A stretch of DNA of 33,157 bases from Plectonema cf. radiosum LEGE 06105 (GTDB lineage Bacteria; Cyanobacteriota; Cyanobacteriia; Cyanobacteriales; Nostocaceae), in NCBI RefSeq assembly GCF_015207665.1, contig NZ_JADEWL010000074.1, positions 1-33,157 on the forward strand. The letters are read 5' to 3'. The notes below the pieces were generated by a model. It made no database searches. It was not told the origin of the DNA and was given only the letters and a program-made list of their open reading frames with translations. Numbering within the stretch: position 1 is the first letter of the stretch; every line of letters begins with the position of its first letter. This document shows, in pieces, positions 2,233 through 22,268 of the stretch. A program made the translations under genes and the position numbers.

Positions 2233-2355
2233 ATATTATTTATATTAAAAACCACCCCATCTTGTGTAAAGTAAACTTGACATTTAGTAAAACTAGATTT
2301 ACCATAAGAGCATGGTGGTAAAAATAGGCTATGCAAGTATATTAATTTGCAACTA

Positions 2356-3573
2356 ATGGAAAACCGCCTAAAAATTTTCAGGACACAACGTAATTTCTCG
2401 CAAGCAGCGCTAGCAGAACGCTTGGGAGTAAGTCGTCAAACGATTAACGCCATCGAAAAAGGCAAATATGACCCTAGTCTGACTTTAGCGATGAAAATTG
2501 CCCAGATGTTCGATTGTGCAATTGAAACAATATTTTTGTTTGAAGCCGATTCTCAAAAAAATTCTACGGGAGTTTCTATGCTTGATAGATTGACTGCTAA
2601 AGCATCAAAGGTAATAGCACTTGCTCAAGGACACTTTACATTTGACAAATGGACTTTACAATCAGTACGGGTGATTCAGTTAGCTCAACAAGAAGCTCGT
2701 CATTTAAGACATAATTTTGTCGGTACGGAACAGATTTTATTAGGATTAATTGCTATTGAGAATGGGATTGCAGCGAAAGTTCTCAAATCTACAGGTATAA
2801 CCCTTGATGAAGCTCGTGTCGAAGTAGAAAAAATTATCGGTAGGGGTTCCAGCTTTTTAGATTTAAAAATACCGTTTACACCCAGAGTAAAGCAGGTTAT
2901 TGAATTAGCTGGAGAACAAGCACATCAACTAGGACACAATTACATTGATACCGAGCATCTTTTACTAGGTTTGTTGCTTGAAGGAGGAGGAGTAGGAGTT
3001 CAAGTATTGAAAATATTGGGTGTAGATACTAATAATCTTTTTCACAAAGTTTTAGAAGAAATTAGACTAAGGGAAGTTAAGATACCACAAATTACACCTA
3101 CTGATAAAAAATATCCGACTCCCATAGATTTTACTTCTGGTTTAATCAGCGCTCGTTTTTGCAGTATATTGTCTTCTTGGGTTGAGTCGCATCAATTGGG
3201 ATATATAGTTAGTTCAAATACAGGGTTTCAGCTATTTAATGGAGATATAATAGCTCCACATATTTCTTTTTATTCCAAAGAAAAACTCAAACAAGTACCG
3301 CGAATTTACCCAGAATTACCACCAGATTTAGTGGTAGAAATAAAATCAGCATTTGACCAACTTAGTACCGTTCAAAACAAGATATTTCAGTTTTTAGAAA
3401 TAGGTATCGGTTCAGTTGTGCTGATTAATCCTGATGAACGTACTGTTACTGTTTATATTTATGAGCGGGATAAAAAGCACATAGTTAATATTTTACAAGA
3501 TGGAGATAAACTCAGTTTTGCTGAATTGTTTCCCAATTGGGAATTAGAAGTATCACAATTGTGGGTTACATAA
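2356..3573 (+). CDS. HTH (XRE) - Clp N-terminal repeat - Uma2-like nuclease fusion protein
   Basis: I choose the ATG at 2356 (405 residues) over an in-frame TTG nine bases upstream, because XRE proteins of this type begin MENRLK. Residues 1-65 are an XRE helix-turn-helix closest to short YgzD-like regulators; the recognition region is [19 protein letters not shown]. Residues about 97-160 and 175-237 are two Clp N-terminal repeats, each with a [13 protein letters not shown] or [13 protein letters not shown] motif. This is the domain ClpA/ClpC use to bind adaptors and substrates, but no AAA+ module follows. Residues about 257-400 resemble Uma2 (DUF820), a PD-(D/E)XK-fold family very abundant in cyanobacteria. 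The usual Asp of the APD motif is His302 (APHISF), while the VVEIK (Glu328, Lys330) segment is kept. Function is unknown; DNA binding is likely and nuclease activity is doubtful. Confidence 0.85.
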
Positions 3574-13855: not shown

Positions 13856-14137
13856 TTATTCCTCTGGTTCGATTGTACTGCTTAACCCATGATTTTTTAG
13901 AGTTTCGCAATAAAATTCGGCGTGTTCTTGAGCGCAAGTAATAACTAAACCGAATCCATTTGTATGGGCTTCCATCATAATACTTACAGCCTGGGGTTGG
14001 CTGAGACTCGGCACTGTGGTAATTAGTGTCTGCACCACATACTCCATAGTGTTGTAGTCATCGTTATGGAGCAAAACACGATACCGAGGGGCGTGTTTAC
14101 GGGTTGTTGAGGGCTTCTCTAATATTTCGACTGACAC
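13856..14137 (-). CDS. clpS: ATP-dependent Clp protease adaptor ClpS
   Basis: ClpS (93 residues) binds substrates with destabilising N-terminal residues and delivers them to the ClpC/ClpP protease. The substrate-pocket motif LHNDDYNTMEYVV (residues 22-34) is intact. VSIMMEAHTNGFGLVITC (residues 52-69) supplies the Met and His that shape the pocket and the adaptor surface. The length is typical. Cyanobacteria often carry two ClpS paralogues; this one conserves the canonical pocket and so fits the classical type. It is transcribed away from the HEARO-like RNA, which lies just upstream in the opposite orientation. Confidence 0.95.
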   Translation of the reverse strand: MSVEILEKPSTTRKHAPRYRVLLHNDDYNTMEYVVQTLITTVPSLSQPQAVSIMMEAHTNGFGLVITCAQEHAEFYCETLKNHGLSSTIEPEE

Positions 14138-20189: not shown

Positions 20190-22268
20190 ATGCCGAAACA
20201 AATTATTATCGCCGAACAGCATCAAATTGCTGCGGTGTTCTCTGAAGACCAAATACAAGAACTTGTCGTAGCTACTGGTCACCACCAAATTGGTGACATT
20301 TATTTAGGAGTAGTAGAAAATGTATTGCCTGGGATAGATGCAGCTTTCGTAAATATTGGTGACCCAGAACGGAATGGTTTTATTCATGTAACCGACCTTG
20401 GACCATTAAGATTAAGACGCTCTTCTGCGGCAATTACGGAATTATTGGCACCACAACAAAAAGTGATGGTGCAAGTAATGAAAGAGCCTACTGGTACTAA
20501 AGGACCAAGGCTTACTGGTAACATTACCTTACCGGGACGCTACGTAGTCCTGATGCCTTACGGACGAGGTGTTAACTTATCCCGTCGGATCAGGAACGAA
20601 AATGAACGCAACCGTTTGCGAGCCTTAGCAATCTTGATCAAACCCGCAGGAATGGGCTTATTAATCCGTACCGAAGCGGAAGGAAAGCCAGAAGAAGCAA
20701 TTATTGAAGATTTAGAATTGCTGCAAAAACAATGGGAGTCAGTCGGCGAGCAAGCCCAATCTTGCCGCGCTCCAGCCTTGCTTAACCGTGACGATGACTT
20801 TATCCAGCGGGTTTTGCGGGATATGTACGGCGCTGATGTCAACCGCATTGTAGTAGACTCCAGTACCGGATTAAAGCGGGTCAAACAGTATTTACAAAAC
20901 TGGAGTGGGGGACAAGTACCCCAAGGCTTATTAATTGACCATCACCGCGATCGCACTGCGATATTAGAATATTTCCGGATTAATGCCGCCGTTAAGGAAG
21001 CTCTGAAACCAAGAGTAGATTTACCTTCTGGTGGTTATATTATTATTCAACCGACAGAAGCATTAACGGTGATAGATGTCAACTCCGGTTCATTTACCCG
21101 TTCGGCAACCGCAAGAGAAACGGTATTGTGGACAAACTGCGAGGCAGCGACAGAAATAGCCCGTCAGTTGCGTTTGCGTAATATTGCGGGAGTGATTGTC
21201 GTTGATTTTATAGATATGGAATCGCGACGAGACCAACTACAGGTTCTGGAACACTTTAATAAAGCCTTAAAAGCAGACAAAGCTCGTCCTCAAATTGCTC
21301 AATTAACCGAATTGGGTTTGGTAGAACTAACCCGCAAACGTCAAGGTCAAAATATTTACGAGCTTTTTGGAGAAACTTGCCCTACCTGCGGTGGTTTAGG
21401 ACATATTGTACATCTACCTGGGGAAAACGAATCCCGAATTGCACCACCATCAGCAGAATTACCAGAGCGTGTAGTACCTTTACCCCAAAGAGAACCGCGT
21501 TTGTCTGCTCCTCGTTTAAACGAGCCAAGAGAAGTAGTCGATGAATACGCAGATTCAGGGGAGGAAGGAGAAGCAGAATTTGCCAACCTAAACTTGCTCA
21601 ATCATCCCAGTTATCAAGAATTAGGTGATAACACCAAACGTCGTCGTCGTCGTCGCGTCGTCGAGATTAATGGAGGAAATGACAAAGATGAGCCACGGAT
21701 TAATGGAAATCCGTTGACACTAGTTAATGATGAATTGGACATCGATTCCGAACCAGAATTAACAAGAAGAACTGATAGTTCTCCATCAGGTTTGAGTAAA
21801 GGATGGAGCGAAAGACCCGAACGCACCAGAACCAGAGTAGAATCGGTTAAAGGAGTACTTGAACCACCAGAAATTATTTCGGTGGAAATGACACCCGAAG
21901 AACAAGATGTTTATGCTTTAATGGGCGTTACACCTTTAAAGAAATTTGACAAAGAGTTCAAAAACGAAAAATCCGTAATCATTAATATTGTTCCGCCAGG
22001 TGAAGATGAAGTAAGCATAGAGGAAGAATCACACTCCCTTACTCCAACACCGAAAAGAGTAAAAATAAGTAATCAAATTACAGTAAAAGAGGAAATAGAA
22101 GAACAAGAGCAAGAACAAGAACAAGAACAAGAGCAAGAACAAGAACAAGAGCAAGAGCAAGAGCAAGAGCAAATAGAATCGAATCAAACGATGGACGATA
22201 ATGAAAATGAAACAGAAGCCAAAACAGCAGATGGCCGTCGCCGTCGCCGTCGTTCTTCTGTCAGCTAG
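20190..22268 (+). CDS. rne: Ribonuclease E/G
   Basis: RNase E cleaves single-stranded AU-rich RNA and is central to mRNA decay and rRNA processing. The catalytic half shows an S1-like domain (residues about 35-100, GDIYLGVVENVLPGIDAAFVNIG), the DNase-I-like catalytic core with VIDVNSGSFT and VVDFIDMESR (the metal-binding Asp residues), and the Zn-link CPTCGG near residue 395. As in other cyanobacteria, the non-catalytic tail is short. It carries an Arg run (KRRRRRRVVEI, about residue 484), a long Glu-Gln tract (about 638-662) and a terminal GRRRRRRSS, the nonapeptide reported to bind polynucleotide phosphorylase. rnhB begins 18 bp downstream, so the two are likely co-transcribed. Confidence 0.96.
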   Translation: MPKQIIIAEQHQIAAVFSEDQIQELVVATGHHQIGDIYLGVVENVLPGIDAAFVNIGDPERNGFIHVTDLGPLRLRRSSAAITELLAPQQKVMVQVMKEPTGTKGPRLTGNITLPGRYVVLMPYGRGVNLSRRIRNENERNRLRALAILIKPAGMGLLIRTEAEGKPEEAIIEDLELLQKQWESVGEQAQSCRAPALLNRDDDFIQRVLRDMYGADVNRIVVDSSTGLKRVKQYLQNWSGGQVPQGLLIDHHRDRTAILEYFRINAAVKEALKPRVDLPSGGYIIIQPTEALTVIDVNSGSFTRSATARETVLWTNCEAATEIARQLRLRNIAGVIVVDFIDMESRRDQLQVLEHFNKALKADKARPQIAQLTELGLVELTRKRQGQNIYELFGETCPTCGGLGHIVHLPGENESRIAPPSAELPERVVPLPQREPRLSAPRLNEPREVVDEYADSGEEGEAEFANLNLLNHPSYQELGDNTKRRRRRRVVEINGGNDKDEPRINGNPLTLVNDELDIDSEPELTRRTDSSPSGLSKGWSERPERTRTRVESVKGVLEPPEIISVEMTPEEQDVYALMGVTPLKKFDKEFKNEKSVIINIVPPGEDEVSIEEESHSLTPTPKRVKISNQITVKEEIEEQEQEQEQEQEQEQEQEQEQEQEQIESNQTMDDNENETEAKTADGRRRRRRSSVS
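22101..22172 (+). repeat. Hexanucleotide microsatellite (GARCAA) within rne
   Basis: Twelve GAACAA or GAGCAA units encode a Glu-Gln dipeptide run in the RNase E tail. Such tracts expand and contract by slippage in steps that keep the reading frame, so length should vary among strains. Confidence 0.9.

Follow-up and report, generated by a model that had tools for sequence, protein, structure and literature searches.

The nearest published mechanism for the locus analyzed here appears to be that of mycobacterial ClpC2. ClpC2 was reported to repress its own gene through pseudopalindromes overlapping the −35 and −10 elements, and cyclomarin bound to its ClpC1-like domain was reported to release this repression (PMC10030653). 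The same report describes, by experiment, ClpC2 as a sponge for cyclomarin that protects ClpC1; it also mentions a mild induction by heat, and its authors assigned the DNA binding of ClpC2 to the ClpN-like domain rather than to an HTH. According to a later report, three cyclic peptides were tested and all bound ClpC2, with induction by cyclomarin only (PMC12913811).

The window analyzed here is a stretch of 33,157 nucleotides from Plectonema cf. radiosum LEGE 06105 (contig NZ_JADEWL010000074.1). On its forward strand, an open reading frame at 2356..3573 begins with ATG and encodes a 405-aa protein in which an XRE-type helix-turn-helix (HTH), a ClpC-type N-domain and a Uma2 domain are fused. 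An in-frame TTG at 2347, upstream of the ATG, would lengthen the protein by 3 aa. In the open-access literature, we found no published account of a ClpN-HTH or ClpN-regulator protein in cyanobacteria, of ClpN-ArsR, or of Clp_N-Uma2.

Like ClpC2, the fusion protein is a homologue of the ClpC N-domain without AAA modules: no AAA domain is among its Pfam matches, where two would be expected for a ClpC chaperone. Self-operators over the −35/−10 promoter region are also common to both, those of the fusion being predicted from sequence. Of the four cyclomarin contacts, three are kept in most fusions and the fourth, E89, in few. However, the N-terminus of ClpC2 is a four-helix dimer domain, whereas that of the fusion is HTH_3 by its Pfam assignment, the two folds not having been compared directly. 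The ClpC2 operator is CGTCAAC-n5-GTTGACG, whereas the fusion has a GTAAA-N6-TTTAC type with another half-site and spacing, and the C-terminal Uma2 domain is a feature of the fusion and not of ClpC2. Because the N-terminal domain and the operator differ, the fusion is not a ClpC2; it probably works like ClpC2 without being a member of that family. Since the DNA binding of ClpC2 is ascribed to its ClpN-like domain, the fusion would need another way of passing on the switch.

Domain architecture and distribution of the fusion

Pfam placed an XRE/HTH_3 DNA-binding domain at residues 5-57 (2368..2526, + strand; E 3.5e-16, 59.4 bits against a cut-off of 23), a double Clp_N repeat in two stretches at residues 96-236 (2641..3063, +; E 1.1e-29, 102.8 bits, above the curated cut-off), and a Uma2 domain of the PD-(D/E)XK fold at residues 256-399 (3121..3552, +; E 2.1e-21, 76.6 bits against a cut-off of 27). 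This is the order proposed in the preliminary description, and all three domains scored above their cut-offs. Compact XRE regulators of the CylR2/PbsX type (1utx, 9k3w) have an HTH of about 65 aa, as in the fusion, but their chains end at 65-66 aa, so that the fusion is longer by two domains. In the linker between HTH and ClpN, residues 75-91 (2578..2628, +) look by eye like a duplicate of the first ClpN helix, and in alignment A1 of the fusions this extra copy is confined to three members from the window's genus.

The domain assignments were also obtained by other routes. In a phmmer search of PDB sequences, residues 96-234 aligned to a plant ClpC1 N-domain (its residues 2-140; E 1.8e-50). 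The Uma2 structure 1wdj was matched by the C-terminus (E 4.5e-9). An AlphaFold2 model built from a 25-sequence alignment had a mean pLDDT of 77 and a pTM of 0.41; at this pTM, the relative placement of the domains is not readable from the model. Foldseek matched the model to the ClpC N-domain 5gui (target TM 0.95) and to the Uma2 structures 1wdj_B (target TM 0.83, E 1.4e-10) and 9y1l_A (target TM 0.84). The C-terminal region thus models as a Uma2 fold, as had been anticipated.

Full-length fusions were found in 25 genomes, one in each, belonging to several families of one cyanobacterial order and including the window genome. The presence of the architecture in 24 other genomes, among them the relative Calothrix parasitica NIES-267, rules out a one-off fusion. 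By sample, the fusion occurred in 7 of 60 relatives, 11 of 388 genomes of the order (E 1e-60), 17 of 217 of the window's family (1e-56), 3 of 61 of a second family and 3 of 386 of the phylum, the last three lying within the same order; these sets overlap, and divergent members may have escaped the E cut-offs. L006 and some further members were aligned by the search from about residue 91-95 onward, and their HTH became apparent on reading the frame. Alignment A1 of the 25 fusions has a mean column identity of 62%. Invariant in it are S26, R27, Q28, T29 and N31 of the HTH, T124, T199-E200, and E328, K330 and S331.

We compared six stretches of 10-14 kb around the fusion gene, four of them from outside the genus, leaving out the G002 member on its short contig. 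No neighbour gene was common outside the genus in these six stretches, which gives no indication of a fixed partner gene. The plasmid and phage collections held no record covering 80% of the fusion query in one place, and a scan of viral contigs gave three loci (L164, L165 and L166), all of which are relatives of the HTH only.

A promoter with two predicted operators

The fusion gene is preceded on the + strand by a −35 box TTGACA (2277..2282) and a −10 box TACCAT (2300..2305), separated by a 17-bp spacer. Two dyads, here treated as predicted operators without strand, lie on this promoter. O1 (TGTAAA-N6-TTGACA, 2265..2282) overlaps the −35 box, and O2 (AGTAAA-N6-TTTACC, 2286..2303), which starts 21 bp after O1, lies between the −35 and −10 boxes.

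We compared the promoters of all 25 fusion genes. The −35 box is exact in 22 of them and reads TTCACA, TTGACG or TTTACT in the other three; a TAC-type −10, as picked by script, is present in 24, at 26 to 111 bp before the ATG. In all 25 promoters, the O1-type dyad over the −35 is symmetric at 4 or more of its 6 positions, and in 18 of them at 5 or more, with a mean symmetry of 4.76/6 against 1.65 over all offsets. O2 in the spacer is mostly of the AGTAAA-, AGACAA- or AGTCAA-N6-TTTAC type, and the gap between the dyads is 3 bp in 20 promoters and 4 bp in 5. The mean symmetry of O2 is 4.08/6 when both gaps are allowed (a fixed register undercounts it at 3.52), and in 11 of the 25 promoters it reaches only 3/6.

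Single dyads are not rare: the window itself has another one at 1227 that matches at 11 of 12 positions. The composite of O1 and O2 matched exactly once in the window genome, at the gene's own promoter, and twice more with 3 mismatches, against none for a reversed-pattern control. A degenerate composite pattern was then scanned over 15 of the 25 fusion genomes, all with the 3-bp gap; left out were the five with a 4-bp gap and five with a 3-bp gap and more divergent half-sites or −35 (L004, L005, L068, L069 and L079). In 14 of the 15 genomes there was a single 0-mismatch site, located by its coordinates before the fusion gene, and in the fifteenth, G126, the gene's own site had 2 mismatches. 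Since the pattern was derived from these promoters, the informative part is the lack of other exact sites. Further matches at 2 mismatches numbered 10 at 8 places in the 15 genomes, compared with a single match of the reversed control. G735 and G737, two related genomes with the fusion, have such a site about 17 bp upstream of the presumed start Met of a sigma-70-family gene (L170 at 1852, identified by Pfam, and L171 at 1865). Targets besides the own promoter are thus possible.

The viral relatives of the HTH bear on the operator type. On one viral contig (L164:4909-5213), a compact XRE gene encodes an HTH core near-identical to that of the fusion, as read from 19 residues of the HTH helix in each protein. 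Upstream of it are TGTAAA-N6-TTGACA at 92 bp and TGTAAA-N6-TTTACA at 46 bp, whereas 200 shuffles gave no perfect match. These sites appear to be independent support for the predicted operator type. At another viral XRE locus, L165, two sites matching at 11 of 12 positions lie some 340-380 bp upstream, and the third, L166, has no such operator site upstream. Taken together, autoregulation of the fusion gene is well supported by sequence comparison. The preliminary description had linked transcription control with ClpC-type docking, a link that we judge supported; it did not extend to the promoter with its predicted self-operators, to the resemblance to mycobacterial ClpC2 or to the ArsR-ClpN proteins described below.

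A ClpC N-domain without an ATPase, a predicted self-operator and no other exact site are features that recall ClpC2. On these grounds we propose, with moderate confidence, that the fusion is an autorepressed ClpC-N-domain sensor and decoy that is itself the main or only target, similar to ClpC2 and with an additional degenerate Uma2 domain. At rest, a dimer or a pair of dimers would sit on O1 and O2 and keep its own expression low. The trigger would be the build-up of a ligand whose usual docking site is the ClpC N-domain, possibly a cyclic peptide or protein that poisons ClpC, exposed unfolded segments, a surplus adaptor or a phage factor. Binding of this ligand to the ClpN domain would take the repressor off the DNA, and the resulting pulse of free ClpN domain would soak up the ligand and spare ClpC. 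The Uma2 domain would then be a non-catalytic module, most likely for oligomerization across both operators or as a second binding surface; a sponge as such has no need of a Uma2 domain, which counts against this proposal. Should the proposal be correct, cyanobacteria would share with mycobacteria a self-inducing ClpC decoy, built with other DNA-binding domains, and toxins, peptides or phage proteins directed against ClpC would be common outside actinobacteria. One member of the greatly expanded and poorly understood Uma2 family would also gain a role that can be tested, and the gene as it stands would be a one-gene biosensor for compounds that bind ClpC.

The same promoter data can be read in another way, with the fusion as a transcription factor under the control of proteostasis. 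Its ClpN would dock adaptors or ClpC, and its activity or lifetime would track the load on ClpC, making it a feedback reporter rather than a sponge. The sigma-70-family site in the two fusion genomes would suit such a factor, as would a ClpS gene in the window (13856-14137), and ClpS1, ClpS2 and NblA are described as ClpC adaptors in cyanobacteria (PMC7966870). However, the own promoter holds the only exact operator in 14 of the 15 genomes, so the fusion protein itself is probably the main output. We regard the transcription factor as the leading alternative and yet as unlikely.

The fused ClpC-type N-domain and its ArsR counterpart

The N-domain of ClpC itself is extremely constant in these organisms: of 25 ClpC rows from many families of the order (L008-L032), 22 have the same residue at each of 141 positions. 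The fused copies retain on average 60% of these residues. Their GTE motifs are kept almost without exception, with T30 in 25, E31 in 24, T105 in 25 and E106 in 25 of the 25 fusions; the two glutamates are, we assume, the phospho-arginine sites of Bacillus subtilis ClpC. The positions that contact cyclomarin in the ClpC N-domain are given as F2, F80, K85 and E89 (PMC5347014). F2 is present in 22, F80 in 23, K85 in 21 and E89 in 5 of the 25 fusions, with Asp at the E89 position in 13 and other residues in 7. With E89 kept in so few, the pocket differs from that of ClpC in most fusions, which speaks against the sensor/decoy proposal; the window protein has all four contacts. The fused ClpN appears to be a copy of the ClpC domain under other constraints.

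A constant ClpC domain beside diverging fused copies would also be expected of an anti-phage or anti-toxin trap. Here the ClpN would bait factors that hijack ClpC, and the dead Uma2 would either serve as another bait or counteract Uma2 nucleases. The patchy distribution (17 of 217 genomes of the family) would agree with this, and phage SPO1 Gp53 was reported to interact with ClpC and to modulate ClpCP (PMC6873191). On the other side, the six neighbourhoods have no genes in common outside the genus, and the PADLOC matches of the fusion protein lie in its N-terminal 101 residues, save for PDC-S03 on the Uma2 part (E 1.6e-5). We know of no cyanophage protein that binds ClpC, which also counts against the trap. 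We consider it doubtful, and less probable than the transcription factor.

The sensor/decoy reading has a counterpart in the same family. In 32 of 208 genomes of the window's family, there are proteins that join an ArsR-type HTH (HTH_20/HTH_5 by Pfam) to a ClpC-type N-domain (L134-L163, L046-L052, L055 and L056); the window's genome has none. We parsed 29 of the 32 rows, the pattern having missed L137, L152 and L161, and the start of L056 being doubtful. In most of the 29, a predicted operator of the ATTTC...GAAAT type abuts the start codon, and a strict operator expression fits 22. In the one genome scanned (G018), there was one exact site, at the gene, and two sites at 3 mismatches against 3 for the control. 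At the cyclomarin contacts of these 29, F or Y is present at the F2 position in 27, F80 in 25, K85 in 29 and E89 in 27. With no more than one Cys among their first 95 residues, these proteins are unlikely to have a classical metal site.

ArsR-ClpN thus resembles the XRE fusion in having an HTH, a ClpC-type N-domain and a predicted self-operator, which in the single genome scanned occurs once in exact form. In contrast, its HTH is of the ArsR type, it has no Uma2, and its operator is another one that directly abuts the ATG. The family seems to follow a logic similar to that of XRE-ClpN-Uma2. As for the origin of the XRE-type ClpN, the tree needs two changes, but a single clade was not rejected (AU test, p 0.397), nor was a grouping of the XRE and ArsR ClpN domains together (p 0.33). 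We discarded mutual exclusion of the two types, because at least five genomes hold both (G018, G701, G710, G731 and G738).

ClpC-type N-domains were also seen elsewhere. L045:2250-2978 encodes a short protein whose one Pfam match is Clp_N, and a 361-aa open frame in L054 is another short protein with this domain. Among phages, genes with a ClpC-type N-domain occur in Mycobacterium phages Myrna and Phabba (H27-H29), and phrog_35667, a phage family of unassigned function, matches residues 93-225 of the fusion (6.6e-38).

The degenerate Uma2 domain

The preliminary description gave residue 302 as His, at the position of the canonical Asp, and residues 328 and 330 as Glu and Lys, and the translation agrees. 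The His302 codon lies at 3259..3261, Glu328-x-Lys330, invariant in the 25 members, at 3337..3345, and the codon for Lys342, the Uma2 helix lysine, at 3379..3381, all on the + strand. We aligned the fusions with a standalone Uma2 set of 47 rows (39 distinct sequences), made up of near standalone relatives and copies from the window's own genome. The input was 20 near standalone loci and 37 own-genome loci, and the own-genome rows recovered were 26 (18 distinct domains in the tree) of 69 Pfam matches.

The fusions share the fold and Glu328 with Uma2/DUF820/COG4636 (PF05685; 1wdj, 9y1l and 6okh), the Glu being present in 25 of 25 fusions and in all 39 distinct standalone sequences. They differ from it in their joining to HTH and ClpN and in their active site. 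The Asp is found in none of the 25 fusions but in 39 of 39 standalone sequences, and Lys342 in 14 of the 25 (lost in 11) against 39 of 39. Uma2 domains do not in general have a Lys at the position of Lys330, where R, M, L or A is commoner in the own-genome copies, so that this residue says little about catalysis; an E-I/V-K-S stretch is common to the fusions and their nearest standalone relatives. In the tree, the fusion Uma2 domains lie on one side of a branch (93/90), beside the near standalone ones.

The preliminary description had suggested either a loss of cleavage or an altered use of metal at His302. The loss of the Asp was borne out. Altered metal use is unsupported because no single replacement is kept at this position (R in 14, H in 5, Q in 3, and K, C and L in 1 each) and Lys342 is lost in 11 fusions, and we set aside a metal rescue by His302. 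By these residues, the protein appears to be a Uma2 by fold and not an intact nuclease. Values of omega in ten close pairs were at most 0.2 in 9 for the HTH, in 7 for ClpN and in 8 for Uma2. The eight Uma2 values ranged from 0 to 0.20; the others, 0.29 and 0.57, come from few changes, and high ClpN values in two pairs, 0.81 and 0.91, also come from few substitutions. Because omega is mostly low, the simplest reading suggested by the sequences is a pseudo-nuclease retained for another role.

Such a retained domain also allows a bolder form of the sensor/decoy proposal, in which the ClpC N-domain and the dead Uma2 are two baits on a repressor that mainly controls itself. Agents that attack ClpC or act through Uma2 would then induce their own trap, and the XRE and ArsR builds, apart from ClpC2, would point to a general bacterial device of immunity or proteostasis. 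We hold this double decoy to be speculative and place its probability between those of the transcription factor and the trap discussed above.

Still less can be said for a fused toxin-antitoxin, in which an active Uma2 nuclease toxin would be checked by the XRE part as antitoxin and targeted for proteolysis by ClpN. XRE antitoxins usually autoregulate, which would fit the promoter. A comparative study called Uma2 (COG4636) a likely solo toxin (PMC2701414). However, the counts of the Asp and of Lys342 given above speak against a toxin that cuts, and with the Asp gone in 25 of 25 we rejected an active nuclease. For a two-gene type II module with an intact toxin, the six stretches offered no common neighbour outside the genus, and the active site is degenerate. 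We consider a toxin-antitoxin very improbable. A junk fusion or an assembly artefact, which the patchy distribution might bring to mind, has a negligible probability, given that the 25 members come from several families of the order, that omega is mostly at or below 0.2 and that the promoter is conserved.

The window genome, of 7.6 Mb, has 69 Uma2 matches, and all but the fusion lie in open frames of at most 280 aa. Elsewhere in the window, the ORF at 20190-22268 (692 aa), presumably a ribonuclease E/G, has a long stretch of repeated Glu-Gln dipeptides toward its end.
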